Assembly: GCA_021904315.1 (NCBI GenBank) | Contig: CM038916.1 | Span: forward strand, 7,529,065 to 7,593,064 | DNA from: Sphagnum magellanicum | Lineage: Eukaryota > Streptophyta > Sphagnopsida > Sphagnales > Sphagnaceae | Length of the DNA stretch: 64,000 nucleotides | Direction: 5' to 3' | Shown: in pieces, positions 46,475 to 64,000 of the stretch | How the letters are laid out: every line of letters starts with the position of its first letter | Numbering within the stretch: position 1 is the first letter of the stretch | Notes under the pieces: generated by a model | The model's database searches: none | Told to the model about the DNA's origin: nothing | The model's input: the letters and a program-made list of their open reading frames with translations, nothing else | Position numbers and translations under genes: made by a program

Positions 46475-49400
46475 ATGCAGCTGCCCTCTTCCAGAAGTCC
46501 AGCCATGAAGGTGGTGTCCTTTCCCTGCTATAAGCGTCAATGGTCTTCACATCATCAAGGAACTTCAAGTCTGTTTCTAAGATTTTTTCCCTGGGAAGTA
46601 AGCAAGGTCTCTAATACTTTCCGAGTATCACAGATGAAGAGACCTGAATTGCTCATGGGTGGTTACAGGGTAGTGCACTGCAAAAGGTTTAGGGCAATGG
46701 CAATTATTGTGCATGATAACAGCATGAAAATCTCATCCCAGGCAAGTCCTTTGGAGACACTTTTGTCAATAGGTCTCATGGAGCCATTGGATTCTCATGT
46801 CAGTGTTGGCCCAAGCAATGGAACAGGGGCTGCTGGATCAGGGAATACAGGCATAGTTTTTGCAGATGTTGAGACCATGGAGGTCAAACAGAATCACCTG
46901 AGTAATTCTTCACCACAGACAAAGAAAGTACGAGTGCCCTGGAATAAGGGCAAACGCCACTCTCCAGGTTTGTATTTTGTCCAGGTTCCTGATATGAGGC
47001 TCAAGAGAAAGTAATTTACAGTTACTTCTTTCATGGGTTTTGGTGATGTTGGGATCTAAAGTATTTGAATTGATGGGGAATTGGCAGAAACAATTGCAAA
47101 GATAAAAGAGAGAACAGCAATGGCCATGCAAACTCCGCAGGTGAGGGCTTTGATGAAAACATATGAGAGTGTGACCACTACCACAAGCTTCTATATTATT
47201 GCTCCTGGTGGTCAAAAGAATTCATTGCTGAAACTATCCAGATTGTCTGAATTCTGAGGTGTATTTCTATATGGGCTTGCCTCTACTGAATCTTGGGATG
47301 GGAGAACTATATGTATCCAGTAATGGACCGTAGTACATAAAGAGGTACTGGGTGAAGAGGCATAGATGTCCTTCCCTGAGATAGACTCAGTGAATCAACT
47401 TTCAAGGAATTTTATTGGTTGTGCAGGTTCGCCAGAAACTCAGACATCATGGCATAGATCAGAAGTATGGATCTGAGAGCTTCTCTCTCCCTCTTAAACC
47501 CCCTATGTTATCCTAGAGATCCTAAAAGTTGTACCATGGACACCTTCTGCTTGGGACCACATCTGCATCAGTAAACAGCATGTCCAATTATCTCTGGCTT
47601 TTGATTTGGGTATGCTTCTGTCAATCAATGGGTGTAGAAGCTTTGATTGAGACTTGACCTACTCAAAGATTCTGCAGGGCTGAGACAAAGGTTAAGATAA
47701 GTGAGAAGATGAAAGCACTGTGGGAGCTTAAAAATGTGGCACGACTGGTCCAAGAGTCTTTTATCAAGGATTGGAAGGAGGTCATTGCAGAGGCTGCACG
47801 GCTTGGTGGAGTCCAGGATGAGGAGCTGCAGTGGGGCTCATATAATGCTATAAAGCAGGCATTCCGAAAGGAGGAACTTGCACTCATCCGAGATGAGAAA
47901 ATGCGGAGAAAAATGGAGCAAAAGGCAGCAGCAAAGGCCCAGAGACATCTTACCTGTTCTGCTGAGCACAGACAAAAAATATCAGATGCTATTAGAGCAA
48001 AATGGCAGGATCCGGTGGGTTCTTCAACTAATTTGCCTATTTTTTATTGCAGTGTAGATGTCTAGTTTTCCTCATATGCGTAGGTGTAATTGTCCATGTG
48101 CAGGAATACCGAAGGAAGTTGACAAAGAGTACACGGAAATCTGACCACAAGAGTGTGCAGAAATCTGACCTCAAGAATACACAAACAGGTGACTACAATA
48201 ACATGGCGACACAAGTTGCTCTGAAATCAAGGACGTCTTCTATTTCCATCGATGAGAAATTTGTAGCAGAGGTTCTTGCAGAGGACCACATCCCAGAAAC
48301 ACGATGTTCACGCTCAACATCTGCTCGAATCAATGGACATCCTCGAGTCATTCTGCCCAGACCCACAATCAAAACTAGCGCATATACAACAGAGAAGTCT
48401 GCAACAGTAGAGAAAAGACAACCACCTGTCACTGAGGCCAAAAGAGTTTCATCTGAGCAAGGCATGCCCTGGCTGGACAACTCACAGGTTCAAGAGGATG
48501 CTAGGTCCAGAGATTCAAATGTTGCTCAAGAAGCTGATGTACTGTCGCAAAAGAGTTCACTTTCTGACCAAGAGAAGCTGAAACTCAAATGGCTAAAAGA
48601 GCGTTGGCTGCTGATGGAAATCTATCGTAGGGAGGCTACCAATAGAGCACGGTTGGTGTTTCTTCATAACCTGACCCATATGTAAATGACCTTCTGAATT
48701 CCTTATCTGTGCGCAAAATAGTTGAAGGTTACTTATCATGGGTGTGACTGCAGCAGGTGTCCACAGACCTCACTCTTCTTTCCAGGGTTGGGTTTATTCT
48801 TTTTCCTACTAATGGATATGTTGTTTCCGAAAATTCTATAACTGTGTTATTGGGTTATGTATCAATTCTATTCAAGTTGAATTTTGATCATAAGGATGGA
48901 GAAGTCTTTAATAATTATGAAGATATCCTTATCCTCTCATTTGATGTGGTCCTCAGTTCACAAAGCAACTGAGCTGGAAAATAAAAGTCTACTGAGTCGT
49001 GTCTTGAAGTTGTTTTGTTGATAGGATACTCATGGTGGAGGCAGAGAGAGCAGTCCAGGCTTTGGAGGCTGTGGCAGGAACAGACAAGGTTGCCCTAGCC
49101 TCTTTACATGAGGCTCGCCAGATTCTGGCAGAAGCTGCCCACTCAATCAAAAGAGCAGAATCCGTAAGCATTGACCATCCATCATTCATGGAGGCTGCAA
49201 ATAGCAGAGCCTCCTCATCCACAGCATATGATGCCAGTGAGTCAGGTAGCCCAATGGACAGTCAATTGCTAGCTGGGGGTGCTGAAGTTTTGGGCCATGG
49301 AAAATTCTGGACCCAACAAACAGGATCCATTAGATGTCCACACCCTATTCCACTGGGGGCTAAATCTTTGACACCAAAGACAAATGACAACAAGAATGGC

Positions 49401-49628
49401 AGTCAGAGCCTAGAAGGGTATGAGATTTCAGACTCTAGGATGGGAGAGAATGTTTCTATGTTATTGCTCAATAGGTCTAGTCAGCAAATGGAAAAAAGGG
49501 AAATGAGTATTCCTCAGAATTTTGAAGACAGAGTTCAGGTTCAAAGGCTCTTGAGGGGAGATAGGACAATTGCCAAAAAATGGTACAGAGGGAGGTTGGT
49601 TATTGCCGGGAGAGATGACAGGAGTTAA
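46475..49628 (+). CDS. NUMOD3-domain organellar protein, six coding exons
   Basis: Coding exons are 46475-46967, 47088-47140, 47427-47464, 47678-48014, 48104-48651 and 49025-49628. They total 2073 bases (690 residues plus stop), with canonical borders and joining phases. The first coding exon has an acceptor at 46467/46468, and ATG 46475 is the first in frame, giving a Ser/Arg/Lys-rich start that looks like an organelle transit peptide. Residues about 155-240 hold NUMOD3-type DNA-binding motifs: VRVPWNKGKRHSPETIAKIK, then KVKISEKMKALWE. A second set follows, SAEHRQKISDAIRAKWQDPE plus YRRKLTKSTRK. These were first described in homing endonucleases; plants keep them in nuclear genes without the nuclease. 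A charged Ser-rich region and an Ala/Glu-rich coiled coil (MVEAERAVQALEAVAGTDK on) follow. The exact role is unknown; binding to organellar DNA or RNA is inferred. Confidence 0.85.
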
Positions 49629-52553
49629 GCCTTCAGTGCTTGCAAAAGTTTTGTAACCCCATATTCTTTATGAAGTTGGATCTGTGAAATTCATGACCAG
49701 CAAGAAGAAGAGGTAATCCTCACATACCCTCTAGAGACTTCACATATAAAGTCTTTGACTGTCTACACAAACCCAAAGCACAGCTGACTAATATTTGAAC
49801 TGACATTGGTCTGGCCATTCCCTTCACTAGCTTGCTGCTGCTCAAAGGAAGCAATTGGTTACCACATCATCTAGCTTCTATTGCTTCTAATTCCAACCAT
49901 CTCTGGATCCATGAGTCTTTTGGGTTGCTGAACGGAGCACTAATTTCTCAGTTTCAATAGGCTTTTATTGTTGACATGCGAGACTACATGCTGTTGTAGT
50001 ACTCCTGGAAATATGTGGCCAACAGGTGTCATATAACACGAGGAACAAGTTTTGCTAGAATCCATGTTCAGAAAGATAATCCACAAGGTTGCTTTGAGCT
50101 TTTATGGGGTACCTTCTGGTGAGTGAGCCCTTTTTTCGCTACTTCTGCAGCAATTTGGATGGATATGTGGGACCATTGCAGTTTCCATTTGGTGCCATGC
50201 GGTTTGAGGAAAGTTCACCAGGTGTTACTCTGCACTCAGAGTTCATTTTTTGGGAACTTCATGGAACATTTCCTATTTCAACTGTTGCTGAGTTGAACTT
50301 GCCGTAAGGGGCAGAGCCTTTAGATGATGAGTTGATTGTTAATTTTTGAAAGGACTTTTGATTGGTACTGACAGACTCAGGTTTAGAACATGGAATGAAT
50401 GGAAGCATGAAACATAAGGAATAAGAGCAAAGCAAAAAACTAAAGCACAGGTAAATGATAAACATTTCCCATTTTCAAAGGGTAAGGTTAAATATTTCGT
50501 CATTTGTTTTATATTTGCCACGTTGGTATAGGTGGGTAAATGTAATGTAAGATGAACTATTTGTACAATTTGTGACACATTGCCAAGTGGAGAAAGACAA
50601 TTAATAGTGCAATTGGCATTACAAGACATGAAGACATGAAGTTTCTAACATCCTAAAAAAATCAACTAACAAAAGGTTAGAATCATAGTGAAGTAGACAC
50701 AAAAAGTGAGTGTCTCTAGCTTTACCATGTATCATGCATTTACAATAAAACAAGTAGCATAAAAATTAATGGAAATACAATTGAAAGCATTCTTGCACCT
50801 CTATTATTATTATAAAAATTTACCTCCAAAAAGCTAGGAGCAAACAAATTTTTTAAGTGAATAAAAAATTTCATTGTTTGCTAGGTGATAAATTCATAAA
50901 TGAAAATATTTTTGGTCTACTTTCAAAACTTATTTGCTTCTTTATTTTTGGGGATATGAATATTATTATATTCTTGAGGTGTGATTATAATAAAAAGTAG
51001 AAAATTTATTTGTGAAAACTCACTTATCACATATTTCACACAAGTCCTTCATTGCAAAAAATAAACTTCAAACCTACTTGCATTTCAAATGAGTATACCA
51101 AAAAAAATTGAAACAATTTAAAAGTTGAAAATTAATGCAAAATAATGAATAACTATGTTTTTTATCATGTAATTAAAAACATTCAATGTAAAATAGTTTT
51201 TTTGGGGGGTTTTATTGCTATTTTAAATCTATTTTCATTCAACATTGATAAGGTAACAAGTACAATTTACTATGCTTATGCTCAAAAATAAAATGAAACC
51301 AATCAAAAACTTTTTAAATGCATTCAAAACATTCATATAATGGCAAATGGGAGTAAAATCTGAAGGGGTTCCAAGAGCATGTGATAAGAATCTTATTCAA
51401 GATAATTGGTATAATGAGAAAAAATGAAATGCCAAAAGAAAACATATTGAATAATTAATCACCATAACTCTAACAAATGCATCATACCATGTGCATGGCA
51501 AAATATGAAAATATGTTATATAATGATTTTGTCATATACTTTTCTTCTTTTTTTCAAAACAATTACCCTCCTCCCATAAGGGCAAACCTCAAATATGTAC
51601 TAGATGGGTAGAATAAAGATGATATGTTCAAAATATTTACAAGCTAATTATTTATTAGGTTAGGTATTAAAAAAGGGTGGCAAAAAAACTTGCCAACCAA
51701 GAAAGGTATATATTCACCTTTCATATTGATACACACAAGTATGTAAAGATAAAAAATTTACTCACCCAACATTAGTTTAAACATTATATTCCATTCTCTT
51801 GAATAAATGGAAACTGATGTGATTTGTTAAAGTGTTTTTTATGTGATAAGTTTCATTTTACTTATATGTTAGTTGTGTGTGTGCATTGTTGTCTTAGAAA
51901 AGGGTAGTTATTTTTTATTGGGCTCCATTATGAAATTGCTAGGACATCAACTCCTCAAGGTTGTTTCAAATGGTGGAAAGATTACATTGTTATAGCTATT
52001 TAATGCACTAGTAAAGTGCTCCAAGAAATTTCCCTTTGTGTTTGGACGCACCTCCCCAAGCAAAAGATGTTTTTGTGACTCAAAAAATGTTGTTAATCAC
52101 ATGTATACCTTCCACCATTCAAAAAAATAATGATGTTGTGCTTCACATTAAGAATGCCTACTCGTGCAGGCCCTTTTTAATTTTTGGACCTACACCTTCA
52201 CTCTATGGCCCTTAAGGCTACTACCTTTAAATTAAAGAAGGCCTTAAGGAACAAGCCTTCCCTTATACAAATGCACCTAACACAAATGCAAGTCTAGAAT
52301 ATATGAAAAAGATCCATTTTCATTTTCTTAAATTGATTTCATATTCCATTCATCCATCATTGTGGGAACAATGTTTTATTAACTATCATATGAGTCTTAC
52401 AATTTGTGCATGTGGCAGATTTTATCAATAAAATTAGTTACCCTTCTATGGTGGTGGTTACAAAATTGACATTGTAAAAGCTAAACACACATCATACATT
52501 GTTTCCACTTGGCATGACGAACCTCAACTAGTTGAATTGGGGAATGATGTACA
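49629..52553. other. 3' flank of the NUMOD3 gene and AT-rich intergenic DNA
   Basis: The first ~700 bases resemble a 3' UTR in composition. A short frame at 50104-50307 (67 codons) is protein-like but has no recognised domain. From 50.6 kb on the DNA is AT-rich and empty up to the CACTA element. Confidence 0.5.
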
Positions 52554-52559
52554 CACTAC

Positions 52560-53110
52560 AACAACAGGGGGCTATTTTGCGATCCACATATCATCGCAAA
52601 CAACAAAGAAAGAAGTTTTCGAAAGCCCGCCTTTGCGAACCATAATTCCTCGCAAACTCTTAAGCTTTTGTGATACCATAACATTCGCATCCGTACAATC
52701 GCAAGTCCTTCACAACTCCCGAACTTGATACAATCGCAAAACTTTTCCAATTATAACTGTTTCTTTATACTATTTGCGATTAACATTACATCGGAAACTA
52801 TTTGCAATAAACCCATCACCGCAACGACCTAGCGAATTGACTCAAAAATCTATCGATTTCCGATATAAAATCTATCGCAAACCTTTAGCGGCATTTTGAG
52901 AATCCCAACAAGTTTGTGTTAGATCTTATATCGGAAACCGATAGGCTTTTAATATTTAACACAAACTTTTTGGGATTTTCAGAATGCCACTAAAAGTTTA
53001 CGAAATCATAGATTTCGCAAACCTGTTTTGGAATGATTTTACCTGTAAGAGTGTAACGATGTCTGTGACATGGTATTATTGGTTTTTTGGCTTTTGCATT
53101 GTTGCGAAGA
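52560..53110. repeat. Left subterminal repeat region of the CACTA element
   Basis: About nine TTGCGA/TCGCAA hexamers in both orientations, plus variants such as AGCGAA and CCGCAA, occur within 550 bases. In En/Spm, subterminal short repeats are the binding sites of TNPA. A matching set is at 60760-61240. Confidence 0.8.
52850..53016. repeat. Interleaved inverted repeats near the left end
   Basis: Pair A: 52850-52868 with 52926-52944 (18 of 19 bases). Pair B: 52890-52921 with 52957-52988 (29 of 32), extending with a small indel outward to 52867 and 53016. Each pair's arm lies inside the other's loop, so the two cannot fold independently. Confidence 0.85.
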
Positions 53111-53293
53111 ATTATGACTTGCAAATGGTTTTGAGATCCATTGTGTATCACAAGAGCATGGCACTGTATTCTTATTTTGGAAGCAGGGTTTATATTCATT
53201 TGGAGTCACTTTGGGCTGCAAAAAAAAATATCTATATCAAAATTTACAATGTAAAAGGGTTTGCAACCCTTGGGTATCTAACACACTAGCTGT

Positions 53294-55069
53294 CTATCTA
53301 GACTTCCTTCCCCTCTTGGATTTCTTCCTTGAATCTTTCTTCCTAGTGTTCTCTGGTGGAGGGGGAGGCTGCTCATCCTCCTCCCTCTCTTCATCGTCCC
53401 CCTGCCCCTCATCCTTGTCCTCGTCCTCCTCCCTATCCTCTTTATCTTTGCCCCCTGCAGAACCTTCATTTTGACTAACAAATGAACTGGGTCCACTGCT
53501 AGTGGTAGCACTGGGAGCAGTGCTACCTGCTCTCTCCTTCTCATCACTGCTGCCCTGGGAGCTCTCACTCTCACCCTCAGATGCCTACATTTCAACATGC
53601 AAAGCTTAGTCAACACCATAAATGAAAATCTTGATTCAAATGAAAACAATCTCAACACAAACATAAATTGAATCCCAACCAAACCCACTCACCAATAATG
53701 CATCAACATGTTCAAAAAGATGTTCCTTGCCATGCTCCTAGCCCATATTCATTTTTGCAGCTGTAATCTTCCTCTTGTACCTCTTGTACTGTCCCCATAA
53801 TACAACAGGTAAAAAAAACGCATAAAGAATCTATTCAAGTCTCCGACCACTTTTGCGAAACGCAGACCTTCGCATACTGAAACTTGCGAAGCAGTTTGCG
53901 AAACAAATCCCATCGTATCTACTATCGCAACCCAAAACGCCAAAATGCCATATACCTATCTTTGTGATGCAATTCGCATTGCAAAGGTATCGCAAATAGT
54001 CCTATTTGACTCAACAGAAACTCACAAGCATGTGAATCTTTGCAGGAAAGAAATGGAGGAGAGGGAGGGTACTTACAAATGCTGCTTTGAGGCCGGGAAT
54101 GCCACCTTGCCCTAGCCTATGGGTGGTGTTTGGAACCAGTTCCACTCGCTCTGCTGCCTTGAGGAACTTCAATGGTGGATCACCAACCTCGTCCACCACT
54201 GATTGGCATTCAGTAAGCTTCAGCTCCAGTGTCTTCAGGTCACGGTCAGACCTCCCAAACTCTCTTGCCTTCTTGGCCTTGGCTAACTGCTATGTGATCT
54301 CCTTCAGCTGCCTTGCTGCTTTCAGCTGCACCTCAGACTGGTAGAAGGCATTCCAGATGTCTTCTGAGAACTGAAGCGGCCTCTCCAAGTTCCTATACAC
54401 ATTCAGGTCTCTCAGGTGAGCACGAATCTTCATCCTGTCATGGTATCTTGCTTGAAACATTGAATTGGAGATCTTGTCTGCAATCCACTGTGAATCAAAC
54501 TCTCCTCCATTTCGAAATGTTCCCTTGACCTAATTTATCACTCTCTTCTGCTCTGCCTTTGAGAGAGTGCCCCACTCAACTCCTCGTGCAAAGTTGGTGG
54601 AGACAATGTGCTTAATGGTGCTCTTGGCCCCAGTGTATGCCAGCTCGGTTGGAATTCCCTCCTCTGCCAATGTTATCAGAGGGAGCTTCTTCCTCTCCTC
54701 CTCCTTCTTCTTCAGGTCGAGCTTCTCCTTTCTGATGGCATCCCTCTCATCCTTCCTCCTTTTCTTCTCGAGAGTTCTAGGTGAGAGAACTCATGTTGTT
54801 GCTCTCTCACCTCTCTTTCTCTTCTTCTCTGCTGCCTTGGTTTCTGCAGCCTTCCTTGCCTCCTCATCTCTTTGTGCTTCCCTAGCAGTCAACCCTGCTT
54901 GCAATGTTTGACCTAAGATGGCTGTCAAGGATGCCAACCCTTCAGGTGTCCTAGTATCGGTTATAGAGAGCTTTGAAGCTCTCAAGTGATCAGCAACCAT
55001 CTTCCTCAACCTTTCTTCATTGTTGTCACCTCCTCCAGACCCAGAACCCCCTCCACCAGTCCCAACCAT
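53294..55069 (-). pseudogene. TNPA-like CACTA protein, broken by four stops
   Basis: Exons in transcript order are 55069-54077, 53788-53693 and 53584-53294, with GT..AG borders and phase-0 joins (459 residues). An in-frame ATG at 55183 would add 38 basic residues. The N-terminus is Gly-rich. A Lys/Glu/Arg-rich coiled coil runs at about residues 70-125. A block with VEWGTLSKAEQKRVIN and FDSQWIADKISNSMFQARYH resembles TNPA / Transposase_24-type subterminal-repeat binding proteins. The C-terminus is Asp/Glu-rich and ends in a basic tail. Stops interrupt the frame at 54791-54793 (TGA), 54530-54532, 54290-54292 and 53738-53740 (TAG); there are no frameshifts. It is transcribed away from the SET and transposase genes, which is unlike En/Spm, where one transcript yields both products. 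The TNPA assignment is by position and general resemblance. Confidence 0.55.
53840..54000. repeat. Internal cluster of the TTGCGA motif in a TNPA-like intron
   Basis: Five or more TTGCGA/TCGCAA hexamers with CTTCGCATA-type variants lie between exons 1 and 2 of the TNPA-like gene. This is a third cluster of the motif that fills the ends. Confidence 0.7.
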
Positions 55070-55189
55070 TGCAATCCGCAACCTCCTCTCTGCCCAAGCT
55101 TTCCTTCGACAATTCTCGAGCAATGCCGAGAATGAATTCAAATTCCGACGTCGTTTCATTCTAGACCCCCAGAAAGATTTCATTACACC

Positions 55190-55721
55190 TTCAAGGAATT
55201 TCGTTCCTTAAGGACTTTCGGCAATTCAAGGCTTGCGATGTAACCCACATCAGAACTTGCGATAAGCTATTTATCGCAAAGGTCGTGCAATGTTGTTAGT
55301 TTCACAAAGTTAGAGGGTTGCGAAGTCGGGGGCTTCGCTAATGTAGGAGGAAGTTAAAGGGTTTAGGGCTTTGGTTTAAGTAACGTATGCAGGTGCGAAG
55401 AGGGATGTGATGGTGGGGGGTTCACAAGGGGTTCGCAAAGTTTTAATTTATTCTGGCTTTAACATTCTGTTTTTTTTTTTGCATATGCCAAAGGGTTTTT
55501 ACAGTATTTCCCCCTATTTCGAAATTGGTGTTGGCATTATTTGAGCAACCAGTCCTACAGGCATAGTTGAGCCCACATTGGATGCAGGTATGCATTTCTT
55601 TTTGGTTTAGGTTGTCTCAATTTATGAGTAGTCAAGGGTTTATATTGTTGTATCACATGATTTTTGAAAGTCTAATCTGGTCTTTGCCTTACACTTGTGC
55701 CGTATTAATGTGATAGATGAT
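55190..55721. promoter_or_regulatory. Divergent internal promoter of the CACTA element
   Basis: This segment separates the starts of the TNPA-like gene (minus) and the SET gene (plus). It contains the end-type motif several times (CTTGCGATG near 55234, CTTGCGATAAG, TATCGCAAAGG, GTTGCGAAG, GTTCGCAAAG near 55440). The shared motif suggests that the same protein binds the ends and this promoter, as En/Spm TNPA does at its promoter-proximal repeats. No TATA box is certain. Confidence 0.5.
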
Positions 55722-56870
55722 ATGTCTTCCTCCTCCGTTGTCTCCACTAGTGACTCATCCTCCTCAAATGAAGGCACATTAGTTCATACACAGGTAGAGG
55801 TGTCTCATTCTCCTCGTGGTCCACCTCGGCAGCTTTGCCAATGCACCAAGTGTGTTGGTCAAATTTCACAAAAGTCATATGTTTGTGCTCAACACATTCA
55901 ACGATTTGGGCGTCATCGTGGTCTTACCCAAGGAGCTTCTTCATCTCATGTGGTAAGTGTCATTTTACCATTGTCATTTTTTCCTTTTTGATACATGTTA
56001 TTTTTCATGAAATCCTCTTTGAAACTATTTTCACTTCCATGGTTTGTTGTGGTTTTTTGAATGTAATAGGGTTCCCGTATGAAACCACCACCCTATGTTC
56101 TATCACAAGGGGTTTTAGCTGCCATAGGAAATGCACTTTCGCAGGCATTTGCTGTAGGGATTGGTACCTCTCATGAGGCCAATAAGCCACATCATGAGGC
56201 AAGGCCACGTGTGCCTTCCATTAGACAGCGATCCAAAGCACAACGTCCAAGTGAGGGTCATGTTAGGACTATTGTTGAGGGCAGATGGGGTATGTGTGAG
56301 TTCATTGGCAAATGTGCTAATATTATCCAATCATGGAACCCTGCAGTTCTTGGGTTGCTTGATAGTTTGCCCTATGATGAGGAGGTTGTGGTTTGGGGTA
56401 GACGATGGATTGTTAAGACCTCTACACTTGGAGAGAGGCATGGCTATGGAGCATATGCTTGTGAGGACATCATTGTAGAGGATTCAACTAGTTGTCGTAA
56501 AGAGGGTCCTACTTTGTTCCCTTATGGTGGGCCTATCTATAAGAGAAGACATTGGAACAGGATCCTCACACAACATCTTGAGTGGAAGACCTTTGCTCTT
56601 GAGATGGACACCTTTGCCGGTAGCACTAGGAGGCATAGTGATAGGAAGGTGATAGATGGAGACCCCATACGTTCTGGAAACATTGTTGGTTTCATCAACA
56701 ATACGGTGGGGACTCATCCTAAGCGTAGGGCTAATTGTGAGTGGGTTTTTGTTGAGGGACCTCCTCCAGCACCATATGGCCAAACTTATCATGAAGACCA
56801 TTGCCTGGTTATAGCTACTAGGACCATCAGATCAGGAGATGAGTTGTTTACACACTATGAATGGAGTTAG
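55722..56870 (+). CDS. SET-domain protein carried by the CACTA element
   Basis: Two exons, 55722-55952 and 56070-56870, join in phase 0 at GT..AG borders to give 343 intact residues. Residues 1-35 are Ser-rich. Residues 39-65 hold a Cys/His cluster (CQCTKC, then C55, H58 and H65), a possible zinc knuckle of the kind seen at the start of some TNP2 proteins. Residues about 190-342 form a SET-type domain, the fold of protein lysine methyltransferases: GYGAYACEDI (202-211) is the GxG SAM motif, PYGGP follows, GNIVGFINN (280-288) and RANCEW (297-302) stand where the NHxxxPN-like core lies, and IATRTIRSGDELFTHYEW ends with the catalytic-type Tyr340. The usual His after Asn is Asn here (INN). I see no pre-SET or post-SET cysteines. 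It lies 0.17 kb before the transposase, same strand. Histone methylation is inferred; RNA or protein targets are unknown. Confidence 0.75.
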
Positions 56871-57037
56871 GATTCCACCATTTCTGAACTATGTACTTTG
56901 TTTAAGACATAACATACCATATCTATATACATGCATTTTGGCATTTTTTATTTATAATGTAATATGCAACTATGCTTGGTATATAGTTAAGATCTTCTGG
57001 ATTTGGTATTGCATAGAATATTCGGCCTTCTGAAGAC

Positions 57038-60000
57038 ATGCTGCCACGGAGGTTGAGAGCAACATATTGGGAAATGGGCATGCCACACAAATCAGACTCT
57101 TCATCAACTCATTCTTCATCAAATGACTTGTCTGCTCATGATGAAGGTGTCTCTCAACCAGTTCAGGAAGCACCGCTGCGTGCAAACCAAGAACAAGCGA
57201 TGGATGACTTCATGGTTGACTGGTTTGGACTTGACATAGTTGATGATATGTCTAGCAACCCACATGATGAAGGAACCAATGCAGATGTTCCACATCATCA
57301 ACATATTGCCCAGGGACAAAGGCAGTGGCAAGAGGCGAAGGCACATGCTCAAACACCTATTTTTCAAGGTGCAAGGTTAAGCCGTTTAACAACCATACTA
57401 GGGTTATTAAACATCCAAGCAAAACACAAGGCAAGCAATACTATGTTGTCAGACATTTTCCAGTATTGTCATAGCCTCTTGCTACACGAGGAAAATGTTT
57501 TGCCAGGATCTTGGAAGGAGGCTAAAAAGATCTTATCCTCCATAGGCATGGAGTATCAAATTGTCCATGCATGTGTTAATGACTAGATGCTATTTCATGG
57601 GAACAATGCCCATTTAATGAAGTGCAGTACATGTGAAGAGGCTCGATATGATCCTCACATGCTTACAGAGAAGGTGCCCAAGAAATCAATAAGGTGGTTT
57701 CCCATTATTCCTCGCTTGCTGCACATGTATCAATGTACAGACTTGGCCGAATTAATGGTTTGGCATAAGAAACATCAATCAGAACATGGTGTTATGAGGT
57801 TACTGGTTGACTCTCCTACTCACAAGCATGTGGAGTCAACATGGCAGAGTTTGAACATGACCCTAGGCATGTGAGGTTGGGGTTAGCATCAGATGGTGTT
57901 AGTCAACATTCACTTGGAGGAAAGGGACGACCTACCTCTGTTTGGCCAATTATTGTCATGAATTACAACCTTCCTCCGTGGTTGTCTATGAAAAAAGGAT
58001 TTTTGCTACTTTTTCTTATTATCCAGGGCCAAGTAAGGTGAAAAACCTAGACACCTACTTAGCACTAGTGGTCGATGAACTCAAAACGCTGTGGGATGGA
58101 GTATGGGCATATGATGGGAGGAAGACCACTAGAGGAATACCACGTGTATTCAAGTTGAGGGCAATTTGCATGTGGACAATGCATGATTATCCTGGTAAGA
58201 AATCATGCACATGCCTCTATATTTTTTTTATTATTATGTTTTGTGATTATTTGTTGTTCTAATATTCAGTTCTTCTACAATCAGGGTTTGGTTTTGTAAG
58301 TGGGCTGCAAACTCAAGGCTACAAGGCATGCTCTACATGTGGCCCAAGTTTGGAGGACATGGCTAAATACTCAAGCCATCTTCGCAAAATTGTTTACCTT
58401 GGCCATACAAAGTTTCTTCCACTGGGACATGATATGAAATTAGACCCACTTTTATTTTCATCTTTTGACATGCCTTATGGTGATGAGCGTGATATTCCAG
58501 AAGCTACCACTTTTGCATATTGGAGGGATGTGGCCAATAGAGTTATTGACCCAAATGATTCTATGGTGTTTGAGGGTAGTGGATTGACAAGGTGGGGTAT
58601 ACTCAACAACTTGCCCTACTGGGGTGAGCTGAAAATACGTCATCTCTTGGACCCCATGCACATTGAGGGAAATGTGGGAAAGGCTATCATAAAACAGCTC
58701 TATGGAGAGAAGGACAGTAACTTTAGGGAGGCCTGTGAGGATTTTGAGAGGCATCCCGATGTGTGGATTATTGTTGATCCTAACACAAGTATTGAGCAAC
58801 GACCATCAACTCCATGGACACTTACTACACAAGAAAGAAAAGACTTTTGAAATCGCATAGGAGAGATGCGATTCCCTACAGGTTTGAACTTTGATGGCAA
58901 GGGTTGAATTTAGAAGTACTCTGTTGCTTTTATTTATATTTAAATCTGTATGCCTTATACTGGAAAAAGAGTTTGAAGTATAGAATGTTATCTGTTGGAT
59001 GTTTAGAATACTTTTGTATAATTTTATGGATCCTTGTTGCATGTTATGGAGCTAATCTTCAAAAAGCTTTTGGTAGGGACGATGACCACAAGTGGCCAAG
59101 GTATCTAAAGACACATGACTATCATCGTTTACTGCAGCACATATTGCCTGTGGCAATAATAGGCTTAGCCAGTGCAGAAGTACAAGATGCTCTTTGGTCA
59201 TTGGGATATCTTTTGAGATGGGTATGCTCAAAGGAGTTATTTGTAGAGGAGATTCCAAGAATGAGGGTAATAGTAGCAAAGGTGGTATGCAAGTTGGAAA
59301 AGGCCTTCCCTCCATCATTTTTTGATTGTCAAGTGCATTTACTAGTTCACCTTGTGGATGAGATAGCCATTGTTGGTCCTGTGCATTGTCGGTGGATGTA
59401 TTGGCTTGAAAGATATATGGCAGTATTAAAAGGTTATGTCCGTAACCATGCACGAGTGGAGGGAAGCATGGCAACAGGACACTTGGCAGCAGAGAGCATG
59501 TTTTATTGCACCAACATCTTGGCCACTATAGATCCATCATGTCTGGATGGAGGAAAGAGAAGAGGAGGAAGACCGTTTGATTGGTGCCATCCAAACATGT
59601 ATGTTATTACCTATAGAGTTAATTCAACTGACCACATTCATGTTGAATAATAACAATGTCATGGAAGAGTGGAGGAACTTCTATGAGAATGCCAAAAGTA
59701 TGAGTGGGAGATCAAAGATTTTTCCTACGTTGCATAAGTACATGAAAGAGAAGTTGGCTAAAGTGGATCAATTGTTAGCACAAGGAGAAAGTATATCATG
59801 TTTTCCAGAGATCACACCTGATGTTCGCACCATTGTTCATGGACCACTGAGAGTTGCGACAACACGTTCAGCAATGTGGACACAAGGAAGACATTTCAAG
59901 TATTTATTTTTTCTATTTCATTAGGCATATTAACTCATCTTCACATTCCAGACAAGTTTTTTAGAATGTTCTAGGATGATTTTTATGGGCATGAAGTTTC

Positions 60001-60536
60001 TATTATCATATAAGTTGTTGACTCACAATGCCTAACACAATATTAATTTCAGGATTTCCACTTTGGATGAAAAGAGGGGCCGCACCTTTGACTGTGGAGT
60101 TCAAGGGCAATTCATTCAGGACTCTAGAAGCAGTCGGCATGACAGGAATATTGTTCGAGATATTGTGCCACATTATGGAAAGCTAGAAGAGATCTTGGTG
60201 GTATCTTATGATGCACATTCAAAGTTTGAAAAGTATGTGTTTAAGTGCAAGTGGTTTAAAGTGAACCTTGTTGGTGCAAATTGCACTATAGTTCAGGATG
60301 AGTGTGGACACACACGGTTAAAGACATCTGCCACCAGTTATCAGCCATCTCATTGGCAAACTTCAGAGCCATTTACTTTTCCCAGTCATGTAGAACAATG
60401 TTTTTATTTTCCTTATCCCCCAAACCCAGAGGAGTGGTCACTTGTTGTCACATATGTGCCACGGTCCCATTCTATTCTAGGTGAGAAACCAGAGGTTGTG
60501 CTTACAACCTCTGAGGTGGATGATGACCACGTATAA
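57038..60536 (+). pseudogene. TNP2-type CACTA transposase (TNPD-like), broken
   Basis: This is the catalytic protein of the element. After an acidic N-terminal part, signatures run in family order: SDIFQYCHSLLLHEENVLPG; VHACVND and GNNAHLMKC.TCEEARY (zinc-type); RLGLASDG; NLPPWLSMK; VDELKTLW; ICMWTMHDYPG; STCGPSLEDM; LGHTKFLP; LPYWGELKIRHLLDPMHIEG (TNP2 catalytic region). Then come HDYHRLLQHILPVAI, FPPSFFDCQVHLLVHLVDEI and RWMYWLERYM..KGYVRN (DUF4218) and VFKCKWFKVN..DECGHTRL (DUF4216-like), ending at 60536. Introns at 58195-58284 and 59899-60052 fit GT..AG; a third lies between about 58900 and 59060. Breaks: TAG 57584-57586, one-base losses near 57843 and 58023, TGA 58848-58850 and a frame change near 59600. 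Confidence 0.85.
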
Positions 60537-60759
60537 TGTACTACTCATTATTTTTATGCAAATTGCCATTGAGGCTTGTGGTTCTATATTATTGCACAAT
60601 GTTCATTGTGTTAAAGTTTTTAGTGAATTTCAGCCTTTATAGTTCTGCAAGTAGGCCCTCTGGGAACTTTGTACTACTCTCTTTTGCACTACTGCATGTA
60701 CTACCTCAATGTCACTGAGATTTTATGCAACTTAAAAAAGGCCGTGATAAATCAGATGA

Positions 60760-61240
60760 CATTACGAAACCTTTTGCGAAATTTCCTTCTCCGATAACCC
60801 TTTTACTACTTTGCGAGCTAATGCACATCGCGACTTGTGATACGTCCACCACCGGAAAGTTTTGTAAAAATTTGTGATGAGGTTTGCGATATGTATTCAA
60901 ACGCAAAATGCGATGCATTGAATAACACAAGCTTGCGATTTCTTGTGACTCTCAAAGTGTTTAGCGATACTTTGTGTATTGTAAAATGTGCGATGTTGTG
61001 AATATGATTAAACGTTGCGAAGTGTGGAATATCGCTAGGGTGGACGGAGACTGAGCAGGTCGCAAAGTTTTGTTTGTGGGATATGCCGCAAAAGTGTTGC
61101 GATGATTTAAGGTACATTATAAATTAGCGATGGTTGGTGAACCACAAGGTGCCATGCGTGTCGCATCGCAAATATGGCAGGTTGTTTTTGCTTCGCAAAC
61201 CCTTCCGGTTTTTTGTTTGGCCCTTCGCAAAAAGGCACAA
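60760..61240. repeat. Right subterminal repeat region of the CACTA element
   Basis: At least ten TTGCGA/TCGCAA hexamers and close variants (TAGCGAT, TGCGATG, GTCGCAT) crowd the last 500 bases in both orientations. It mirrors the left end. Confidence 0.8.
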
Positions 61241-61252
61241 TATGTAGTAGTG

Positions 61253-64000
61253 ACATAAGGCTCTTGTGCTAAATCATTTAAATCAAAGTGATAATCAAGA
61301 ATTTAAATTTTGTTTTTGAGGGAAGATTTGAATTTTTTTTCTTCCATGAGGAGTTTTTTGGAATATTGTAAAAAGGAAAGTAGAATGTAGAGAAGGAATT
61401 GAAGTTCTCATTCAACTCTTTGAGAAAAGCAAATTTCAATGCTTCCTAGGACATGTACAAATATATCAAATTAAGAAATGAAGGTTGGGAATAGAAATTG
61501 CAACTTTGAAAGCAACTAGATGTACATAAATTGATAAACGTTTGTAATCATCACATATGTAACACTACATGTTACAAAATATCAATGATGTTTCGACAAG
61601 GCTTTTGAAACTTGTTGAGAAAACATAGTTTAATAAAGATACCATTTAGGTGCAAGTACATAAATAGACGCCAATGAGATTACTTTACAAAAGGATTGTG
61701 AGTCATTTTTAGTCCTTTTTCACTTTTCATATGAAAGAATTTTTGAATGAAATCTTTTGCAACTTGTTATTAAAAATACATATAGTTGCCCCAATAGATC
61801 ACATCTTTTGTGTTAATCATTGTTGAATAAATATGAATCTTTCAAAGTGTGTAAATTCTGCCACATTCCGCATTTCATTTTGAAAATTTATCATAATTTT
61901 GAATCATACGAAAATATGCTAACTGCTTTAGGTTTTTTTCTTTTATATCATAAATTAAAACTTTTTTTTGTATGTCATGCATATTTCAGCCCATTTACAT
62001 GTGGTAAAGGACTCTTGAAAATTTGAAAAATACTTTGAATTTTTTTTAAACATAATTTTGTATCTTTTAAATTGTGAATGTTTTTTGAACTTGGGTAGTA
62101 GGTTACTATCATCTAAATTTTTTTACCATTAAAATTATGTTATTACAATAGTCCTTTACCTAGTCCTTTGTAAAATTAACCACATATGATGCAAGACCTA
62201 TTCAAGTTCAAGTGTCCTCTTTAAAAACCAAAACCCAAAATTTAATTTAATGAATTTTTAATTTGAATTCCTAAACTTTCATATTAGTCATTTAGCACAA
62301 TTTGAAATGATTAACGTGATTTTAAAATGTCAAAAAAAAAACACAATTTTCACCATTTTCAACATGGTTTTTGGCTCCTATCTCTATACTATCACCCATT
62401 TTGCTTCACATAATTAAAAGAATTACTATGGCATGTAGATGCGATCATGATTTAAAATTAATTGTTGCATCTAGTAAAGATGGAAAAAATTAATATATTA
62501 TATAACAAAAACAACCATATACACATTGGATATGTCTTCATTATTACATATTCCAATTTTAAAGTCAAATAACTTATGATATAATTATTTCCAAATATTC
62601 CATTTATAAAACCAACAATTTTTTATTTTTTATTTCAACACAATTGGATCAAAATAAGAAATATTTGTAACATGCGTGATTAATTACCTTTTTAGATACC
62701 CTAAGCACTTCACATCTTATTGATATGGTTACATCCCTTGGTGTAGTTTATCTTTTGGGATGATTGAACAATAAAATTTGTCAACATTGATTATGATAGA
62801 AGATCAAAATCAACAAATTAGTGGATTTGAAACATTCAATGTGCATGCAAAAAAAAACAATGAAAAAATTGTCTTGCATAATTTTAATGGATTACCAATT
62901 TCCTTCTCAAGAATTTGACAAGTTTTCACCTTATGAATTATCTAGAAAACTTTGCAAAAGATTTAACCCACTTTTTAGTAAATTGTTAATGGGCCATACA
63001 CAATTTAAAACATATATAGTGTCTTTATGTATATAAAACACCTAAAGTACATATCTTACAAAGATTTTAAATAACATTTGCAAAAAATGATTTAGAAGTT
63101 TGTTGCAAAATAATATGCATATTATTCACACCTCAGAGATCATACAATGATTTATAACCTAATGAACAAATTAGATGGGAAGCCACATACTTCACAAAAC
63201 TTCTTGACATTAAACTTTTCAACAAAAATATAATTCCAATGACAAGAATTTTCAAGGAATTGGTATATGGGAGATTTTTCATAATCTTTCATGTGGTTGT
63301 CCCTAGACAATTCTAGAGATGATTTCAATAGAAATTTAATTATCAAATCAGACTTTTTTTCAAAAAAAATTATATTGCATTCCCCCATATGGCTCCAAGG
63401 ATAGAGAGAGGCAAAAGATGACCAATGGAAGTGCACAAGTTGTTTTTAGCTCAACAAATGGAAGGGGGCAAAAGCTTGTGACAACAACCACTTTGTCACT
63501 ATTTTTTTCTCCTTTTTTCTATTTGTCATCATAATTAGATTGTTGATGTATGTTGTGCATAGAGTTTTCATTGAACTGGAAATGTGAAGTGCACACATGC
63601 ATATGGAATGTTTCATCAACCTCACTAACCTTTTTTTATAAAGGTACATCCTCTTCAACCAATATGATTTTTTTTCATTTATTCCATATGTGTTGGGTAA
63701 CTCACAAAACTTCATGACATTACATTTTTTGACAAAAACATAATTAATAATGTAAACGTGTTGCATGAATGTAAAGAAATGAGAAGTGTTAGACTATTGT
63801 ACTAAGGACTATAATCTTTGATGTCAATGATGTAGATGATTGGTCACACAAATTTACAAAATAAAAAGGTTATACATGTGTATGATGAAGATTACAAATA
63901 ACACTTTAGAAATATTGATGACATATGTAGTAATCACAATACAAATCATGCAAATGAAAACATTACAAATAAAAAATTATAACTTGAATATCAAATGTGT
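61253..64000. other. AT-rich intergenic DNA, no gene seen
   Basis: No frame with protein features, RNA gene or clear repeat is visible. The first three bases, ACA, are the right copy of the CACTA target duplication. Confidence 0.6.

Follow-up and report, generated by a model that had tools for sequence, protein, structure and literature searches.

A SET gene as a standing component of two CACTA transposon lineages in a Sphagnum genome

SET methyltransferase genes have been described in HarbingerS and MuDR elements of Phytophthora, and the same source, in the part of it available, reports that fungal transposons, EnSpm/CACTA among them, carry TET/JBP, which was passed between transposon lineages (PMC12730594). 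The Phytophthora elements, which can be likened to the element presented here by description only, are also DNA transposons with a SET gene, but they belong to other superfamilies and to an oomycete host. The fungal elements share with it the presence of an epigenetic enzyme on CACTA and other transposons, but that enzyme acts in DNA demethylation and is not a SET protein, and the hosts are fungi. SETMAR (Metnase), as far as the available description goes, has a SET domain adjoining a transposase, but it is a fusion gene of the anthropoid primate host with a mariner transposase and not a mobile family carrying SET. A further system for comparison is VANC, from the VANDAL elements (MuDR) of Arabidopsis, which according to the accessible part of the source attaches to noncoding regions in copies of its own element and causes silent marks to be lost (PMC10398659). 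VANDAL belongs to another superfamily than the family studied here, and silent-mark loss is demonstrated for VANC, whereas it is putative for the SET protein. VANC itself is presumably not a SET protein.

Plant CACTA elements of the En/Spm type are described as having two ORFs, a transposase and ORF2, in a paper whose available part contains the term 'SET domain' 0 times (PMC4158355), and the available part of a review on how plant transposons capture genes contains 'methyltransferase' 0 times (PMC13317346). The element described here is like these plant elements in its ends, its 3-bp duplication, its TNP2 transposase and its subterminal repeats, and unlike them, as they are described, in its SET gene. 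SET in DNA transposons is already in print for Harbinger and MuDR, while among the matches listed in the open-licence literature we found no description of a plant CACTA with SET, which agrees with what an earlier note on this DNA had claimed. The finding adds plant CACTA to the superfamilies reported with SET, so that DNA transposons may repeatedly carry epigenetic enzymes. It also bears on the open question of how many-copy transposons persist under plant silencing: the question becomes testable with a family of about 100 placed copies in which a putative histone writer is combined with repeat arrays of its own and with a motif that may serve in targeting.

Element structure and evidence for a SET domain

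The window, that is the whole stretch of 64,000 nucleotides analysed here, contains a CACTA element whose parts are collected in Table 1. Its ends read CACTACAACAACAGG... and CACTACTACATATTGTGCC, with ACA outside both, so that the position of the SET gene inside CACTA ends with a target duplication, as read in the earlier note, was confirmed. Three features of the CACTA (En/Spm) superfamily are present, namely CACTA...TAGTG ends with a 3-bp target duplication, a TNP2-type transposase and subterminal repeat arrays, with ten TTGCGA/TCGCAA motifs per end. This motif occurs 32 times within the element and 9 times across the remaining 55.3 kb of the window; besides the ten copies at each end, five lie at 53853-53995, five in the interval between the minus-strand gene and the SET gene, and two elsewhere.

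Table 1. Features of the CACTA element in the window (a slash within a splice site marks the junction)
Feature	Position	Strand	Evidence or remark
CACTA element, 8,699 bp	52554..61252	+	imperfect terminal repeats CACTACAACAACAGG / CACTACTACATATTG; fetched copies align along the element
Target duplication ACA	52551-52553 and 61253-61255
5' subterminal array, ten TTGCGA/TCGCAA motifs	52577..53107	.	motif count
Charged minus-strand gene in open pieces ('TNPA-like' of the earlier note)	53294..55207	-
Five TTGCGA/TCGCAA motifs among pieces of the minus-strand gene	53853..53995	.	motif count
Five TTGCGA/TCGCAA motifs, interval from minus-strand gene to SET gene	55233..55438	.	motif count
SET gene exon 1, 77 codons, phase 0	55722..55952	+	donor TG/GTAAGT; aligned in 20 fetched copies
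Transposase-associated (PF13963-like) motif CxCxxC-x12-QH, exon 1	55836..55916	+	HMM of five genome motifs
SET gene exon 2: linker and SET, with stop	56070..56870	+
SET domain, profile positions 24-104 of 105	56469..56858	+	PF00856 25.1 bits; hhalign 97.1%
Possible acceptor GCATAG/AA; in-frame splicing of exon 1 to TNP2 would leave out SET	57011..57018	+	predicted from sequence
TNP2 transposase gene, broken in the window copy	57038..60536	+	Pfam
3' subterminal array, ten TTGCGA/TCGCAA motifs	60774..61230	.	motif count

Of the two neighbours attributed to the SET gene in the earlier note, a TNP2 gene and a 'TNPA-like' gene, only the first is supported. TNP2 lies downstream of SET on the same strand and was recognised by the Pfam profiles Transposase_21 (39.8 bits, cut-off 28.6) and DUF4218 (112.6 bits, cut-off 27), DUF4216 remaining slightly below its cut-off (29.7 against 30.6 bits); in the window this gene reads as broken, with stops at 57584-57586 and 58848-58850 and changes of frame near 57845 and 58015. 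For the minus-strand gene the 'TNPA-like' label found no support, as 0 of its 5 pieces gave a Pfam match near the cut-off. Its comparison with the second lineage introduced below (lineage B) gave E-values of 0.67 or worse, that is no real match. This gene has an acidic part and points away from the SET gene across five TTGCGA motifs. To the left of the element, at 47709-49628, the window also holds open frames of host-like appearance, two pieces of which were without a Pfam match near the cut-off.

The two-exon frame of the SET gene proved real: its predicted product of 343 residues has no internal stop, with splicing inferred from the sequence across a 117-bp intron (55953-56069) that begins with GTAAGT and ends with TAG. 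Its assignment to the SET type was also upheld, because the Pfam SET profile PF00856 (cut-off 22.4 bits) matched the exon-2 frame with 25.1 bits (E 2.4e-5) and the whole product with 24.3 bits (E 4.3e-5), and the GxG, FINNT/RANCEW and GDELFTHYEW motifs are present as they had been read. When both lineages together were compared by hhalign with nine reference SET domains, two of the nine being confirmed by PDB matches, a probability of 97.1 was obtained (E 5.9e-11, score 68.3), the highest score among 20 column shuffles being 13.7. AlphaFold runs on single sequences gave pLDDT values of 31.4 and 29.2 (two runs), and the SET assignment therefore rests on profile comparison. A search of NCBIfam gave no match, the PDB sequence search gave a single match at chance level (E 0.7), and no relative was found in viral contigs.

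Concerning the SET subfamily, ATXR5/6 and EZH2 gave the top shuffled z-scores among the nine known domains (7.6 and 7.5, against 16-17 between lineages A, that of the window, and B), which is no evidence of a subfamily. A kinship with ATXR5/6, considered from the GINNHT motif, was given up, because FINST is the reading in most copies and the z-score is only 7.6.

Copies of the family and a second lineage

We searched the genome containing the window (438,994,042 bases in 31 contigs) with a method that scores the best candidates only, so that all copy counts are lower bounds. The exon-2 protein gave at least 127 matches, corresponding to at least 105 SET places after joining pieces, and the TNP2 piece of the element gave at least 109 family places at 74% identity or more. 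The SET gene was found upstream of TNP2, on the same strand and within 10 kb, at 101 of the 109 listed family TNP2 places, with a median gap of 2172 bp, and reciprocally a family TNP2 lies downstream of 102 of the 105 listed SET places. These counts of copies and of co-occurrence rule out a one-off capture of the SET gene. According to the earlier note, its reading would be refuted if the frame were always missing from related TNP2 elements; this does not apply to the window family nor to lineage B, where 4 of 5 listed copies have both genes, but it holds for more distant CACTA families. According to the part of the source available, CACTA takes first place, with 6.8%, among the classified repeats in the 439 Mb assembly of Sphagnum divinum (PMC9946827).

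Twenty copies, most of them ranking high in the SET list and therefore a non-random sample, were fetched with their flanks. Ten of them have both ends and a matched 3-bp duplication, with eight different triplets; for each of the remaining ten, one end or both could not be located in the sequence fetched, and several show large insertions or deletions. Over the first 2.7 kb of the element two fetched copies, L018 and L021, show no match exceeding 150 bp; both have the same in-frame deletion of 3 bp immediately upstream of TNP2, and they form a subfamily with a different left arm. Eight family TNP2 places are without a listed SET, for example C6:3622822, with a family 5' end at C6:3629993, and may be deletions or a branch without SET. 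By-eye comparison also revealed family 5' ends with no listed SET or TNP2 place nearby (C6:9925154, C9:15275234, C11:9513499 and C6:14776973), and these four could be non-autonomous derivatives.

We also fetched 20 other SET loci, and one of them, L089 (C1:24597575), matched the family HMM with E 8.5e-6 (186 sequences searched) and z 16. In its surroundings (L102) SET is followed by TNP2 pieces running from N- to C-terminus, in the same order and on the same strand as in the window family. This second CACTA lineage, lineage B, has at least five copies, and 4 of the 5 listed have their own TNP2 2.6-3.1 kb downstream; its SET domain matches PF00856 with 30.5 bits over profile positions 1-104 (cut-off 22.4). 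From this analysis it is evident that the SET gene is a standing component of the window family and of a second, deeply diverged CACTA lineage of the same genome.

Between lineage B and the family copies SET is 27-34% identical (about 31%) over 131 residues, with a Smith-Waterman z-score of 17, and TNP2 is 33-36% identical to that of the window family over about 132 residues (45% over the best 77). SET has therefore remained recognisable over about the same divergence as TNP2, from which we infer constraint. The TNP2 of lineage B is nearer to that of families without detected SET (up to about 50%) than to that of the window family, suggesting either that SET was lost in many lineages or that it was passed between lineages.

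Within the family, 71 near-full-length SET sequences including that of the window were collected, and the 69 of equal length were used. Thirty-two of them are stop-free, and the other 37 hold 60 stops. Singletons comprise 183 non-synonymous and 59 synonymous changes and 12 stops (ratio 0.99), doubletons have a ratio of 1.06, and changes in three or more copies comprise 106 non-synonymous and 39 synonymous changes and 8 stops (ratio 0.88, indistinguishable from neutral). Selection was sought among these 69 copies and was not found, the substitutions fitting neutral decay, so that the family seems to have expanded in a single burst and then decayed. Neutrality within the family speaks neither for nor against function in an active lineage, and the case for constraint consequently rests on the two lineages. 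In exon 2 of the same copies the largest class of changes is C to T, especially among shared changes and in CHH, CHG and CpG contexts, a pattern that cytosine methylation and recurrent decay would be expected to leave.

The N-terminal motif and the putative role of the SET protein

Exon 1 of the window copy contains the motif CQCTKC...QHIQRFG, with a spacing equal to that of lineage B. Pfam PF13963 gave no match in this exon; an HMM built on five motifs of the same genome, lineage B included, gave a score of 14.3, which was reached by 0 of 2000 shuffled sequences (best 10.1). In lineage B the motif before SET reads CPCNNC...QHLQKFG and matches Transpos_assoc PF13963 with E 1e-4 and 22.9 bits, below the cut-off of 27.7, the stop contained in this exon having been entered as X; in a genome scan PF13963 was found before 2 of the 5 listed lineage B SET copies, with 22.2 bits each, also below the cut-off. 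The linker that follows the motif does not align between the lineages (z 0.6). At C8:5413843 the motif lies in one 811-codon frame with a TNP2 match, that is, elsewhere the motif begins the transposase, and at four other CACTA loci (L107-L110), where a long gap separates motif and TNP2, the motif is present without SET. It follows that SET sits between the motif and TNP2.

Considering these data, the SET protein is most likely a transposon-borne lysine methyltransferase, which would be aimed at the chromatin of its own element. As a joint reading, to which we assign a probability of roughly 0.6, it is possible to hypothesize that this CACTA family encodes, beside TNP2, a protein made of motif, linker and SET domain that would mark the chromatin of the family's own repeats. 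The predicted protein has the transposase-associated zinc-type motif at its N-terminus, followed by the linker and by the C-terminal SET domain. The motif would bring the SET domain to the TTGCGA arrays, which lie at both ends of the element and next to the SET promoter; there SET would methylate a histone lysine and so change the chromatin of the element. An opening, anti-silencing mark is our first guess, direction and substrate being both guessed, and the analogy is with VANC, a factor that removes silent marks and whose binding sites are noncoding regions in copies of its own element (PMC10398659, in its available part).

Motif, SET and TNP2 may also belong to one transcription unit, in which alternative splicing would produce either motif plus SET or motif plus TNP2. 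Exon 1 ends in phase 0 and could be joined in frame to the acceptor GCATAG/AATATT just before TNP2, whose AG is kept in 19 of 20 fetched copies; since an in-frame join is expected by chance in about one case in three, this splice is to be taken as a lead only. A stronger version, which we consider conceivable but doubtful, is that the SET exon was put between the N-terminal motif and the body of a transposase gene, which would then be spliced to give either the transposase or a motif plus SET writer; if true, this writer would represent a separate enzymatic anti-silencing route, independent of VANC.

The same observations could be read differently, with SET as an exon of the transposase machinery that acts in transposition, by methylating or binding the transposase or its partners, and not on chromatin. 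The motif that begins TNP2 at C8:5413843 and the possible in-frame join of exon 1 to TNP2 are both in favour of this role. However, the SET exon has its own stop, 167 bp before the start of TNP2, and other CACTA lineages of the same genome manage without SET, and we therefore judge it unlikely.

Even less probable is that the SET fold was kept and catalysis was lost, the domain serving as a binding module. GxG, the Asn at the NHS position, NC and the final Tyr are common to both lineages; the full N-H-S motif is absent, His being replaced in both; at this position the window has NNT, most of the 28 stop-free copies have NST, and lineage B has NSS. The first active-site Tyr is kept in most SET enzymes, and the first Tyr of the window SET is replaced by Phe in lineage B. 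These changes would fit a loss of catalysis; however, the two lineages have retained Asn and the final Tyr although they are only about 31% identical overall, and some active SET enzymes likewise depart from NHS.

A passenger host gene, captured by a CACTA element and multiplied without having a function (Pack-CACTA), would agree with the neutral change within the family and with the lack of SET matches outside both lineages near other listed TNP2 places, but it is very improbable, as two lineages at about 31% SET identity have the same order, strand and N-terminal motif, 101 of the 109 listed TNP2 places keep SET, and 19 of the 20 other fetched SET loci score 4.3 z or less, the one at 16 being lineage B. 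A Pack-CACTA is a non-autonomous carrier with a host fragment, and not a constant part of a transposase family, as SET is both at these TNP2 places and in the second lineage.

Other SET and TNP2 loci

A host donor gene for the SET domain was also considered and, as far as the same 20 fetched loci are concerned, was rejected on their z-scores. Outside the two lineages 58 SET matches were compared, and none of them was nearer than 20 kb to any of 135 other listed TNP2 places; both lists comprise best candidates only, and nine additional SET pieces, each at most about 1 kb away from one of the 58, were not counted separately. A family SET is found within 10 kb at 2 of these 135 places, where it likely reflects neighbouring insertions. 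SET as a general feature of CACTA elements in the genome of the window was thus rejected as far as tested, no SET having been found near the 135 other listed TNP2 places apart from these two.

The loci L079-L081 were considered as further SET transposons and were rejected, since they form a separate degenerate SET family. Together with C12:19158796, C5:2323053, C18:10833352 and similar sequences, none of them within 20 kb of listed TNP2 places, they are multi-copy SET-like frames of about 117-133 residues, partly with stops and 67-87% alike at the DNA level, which look like degenerate SUVR-type genes.
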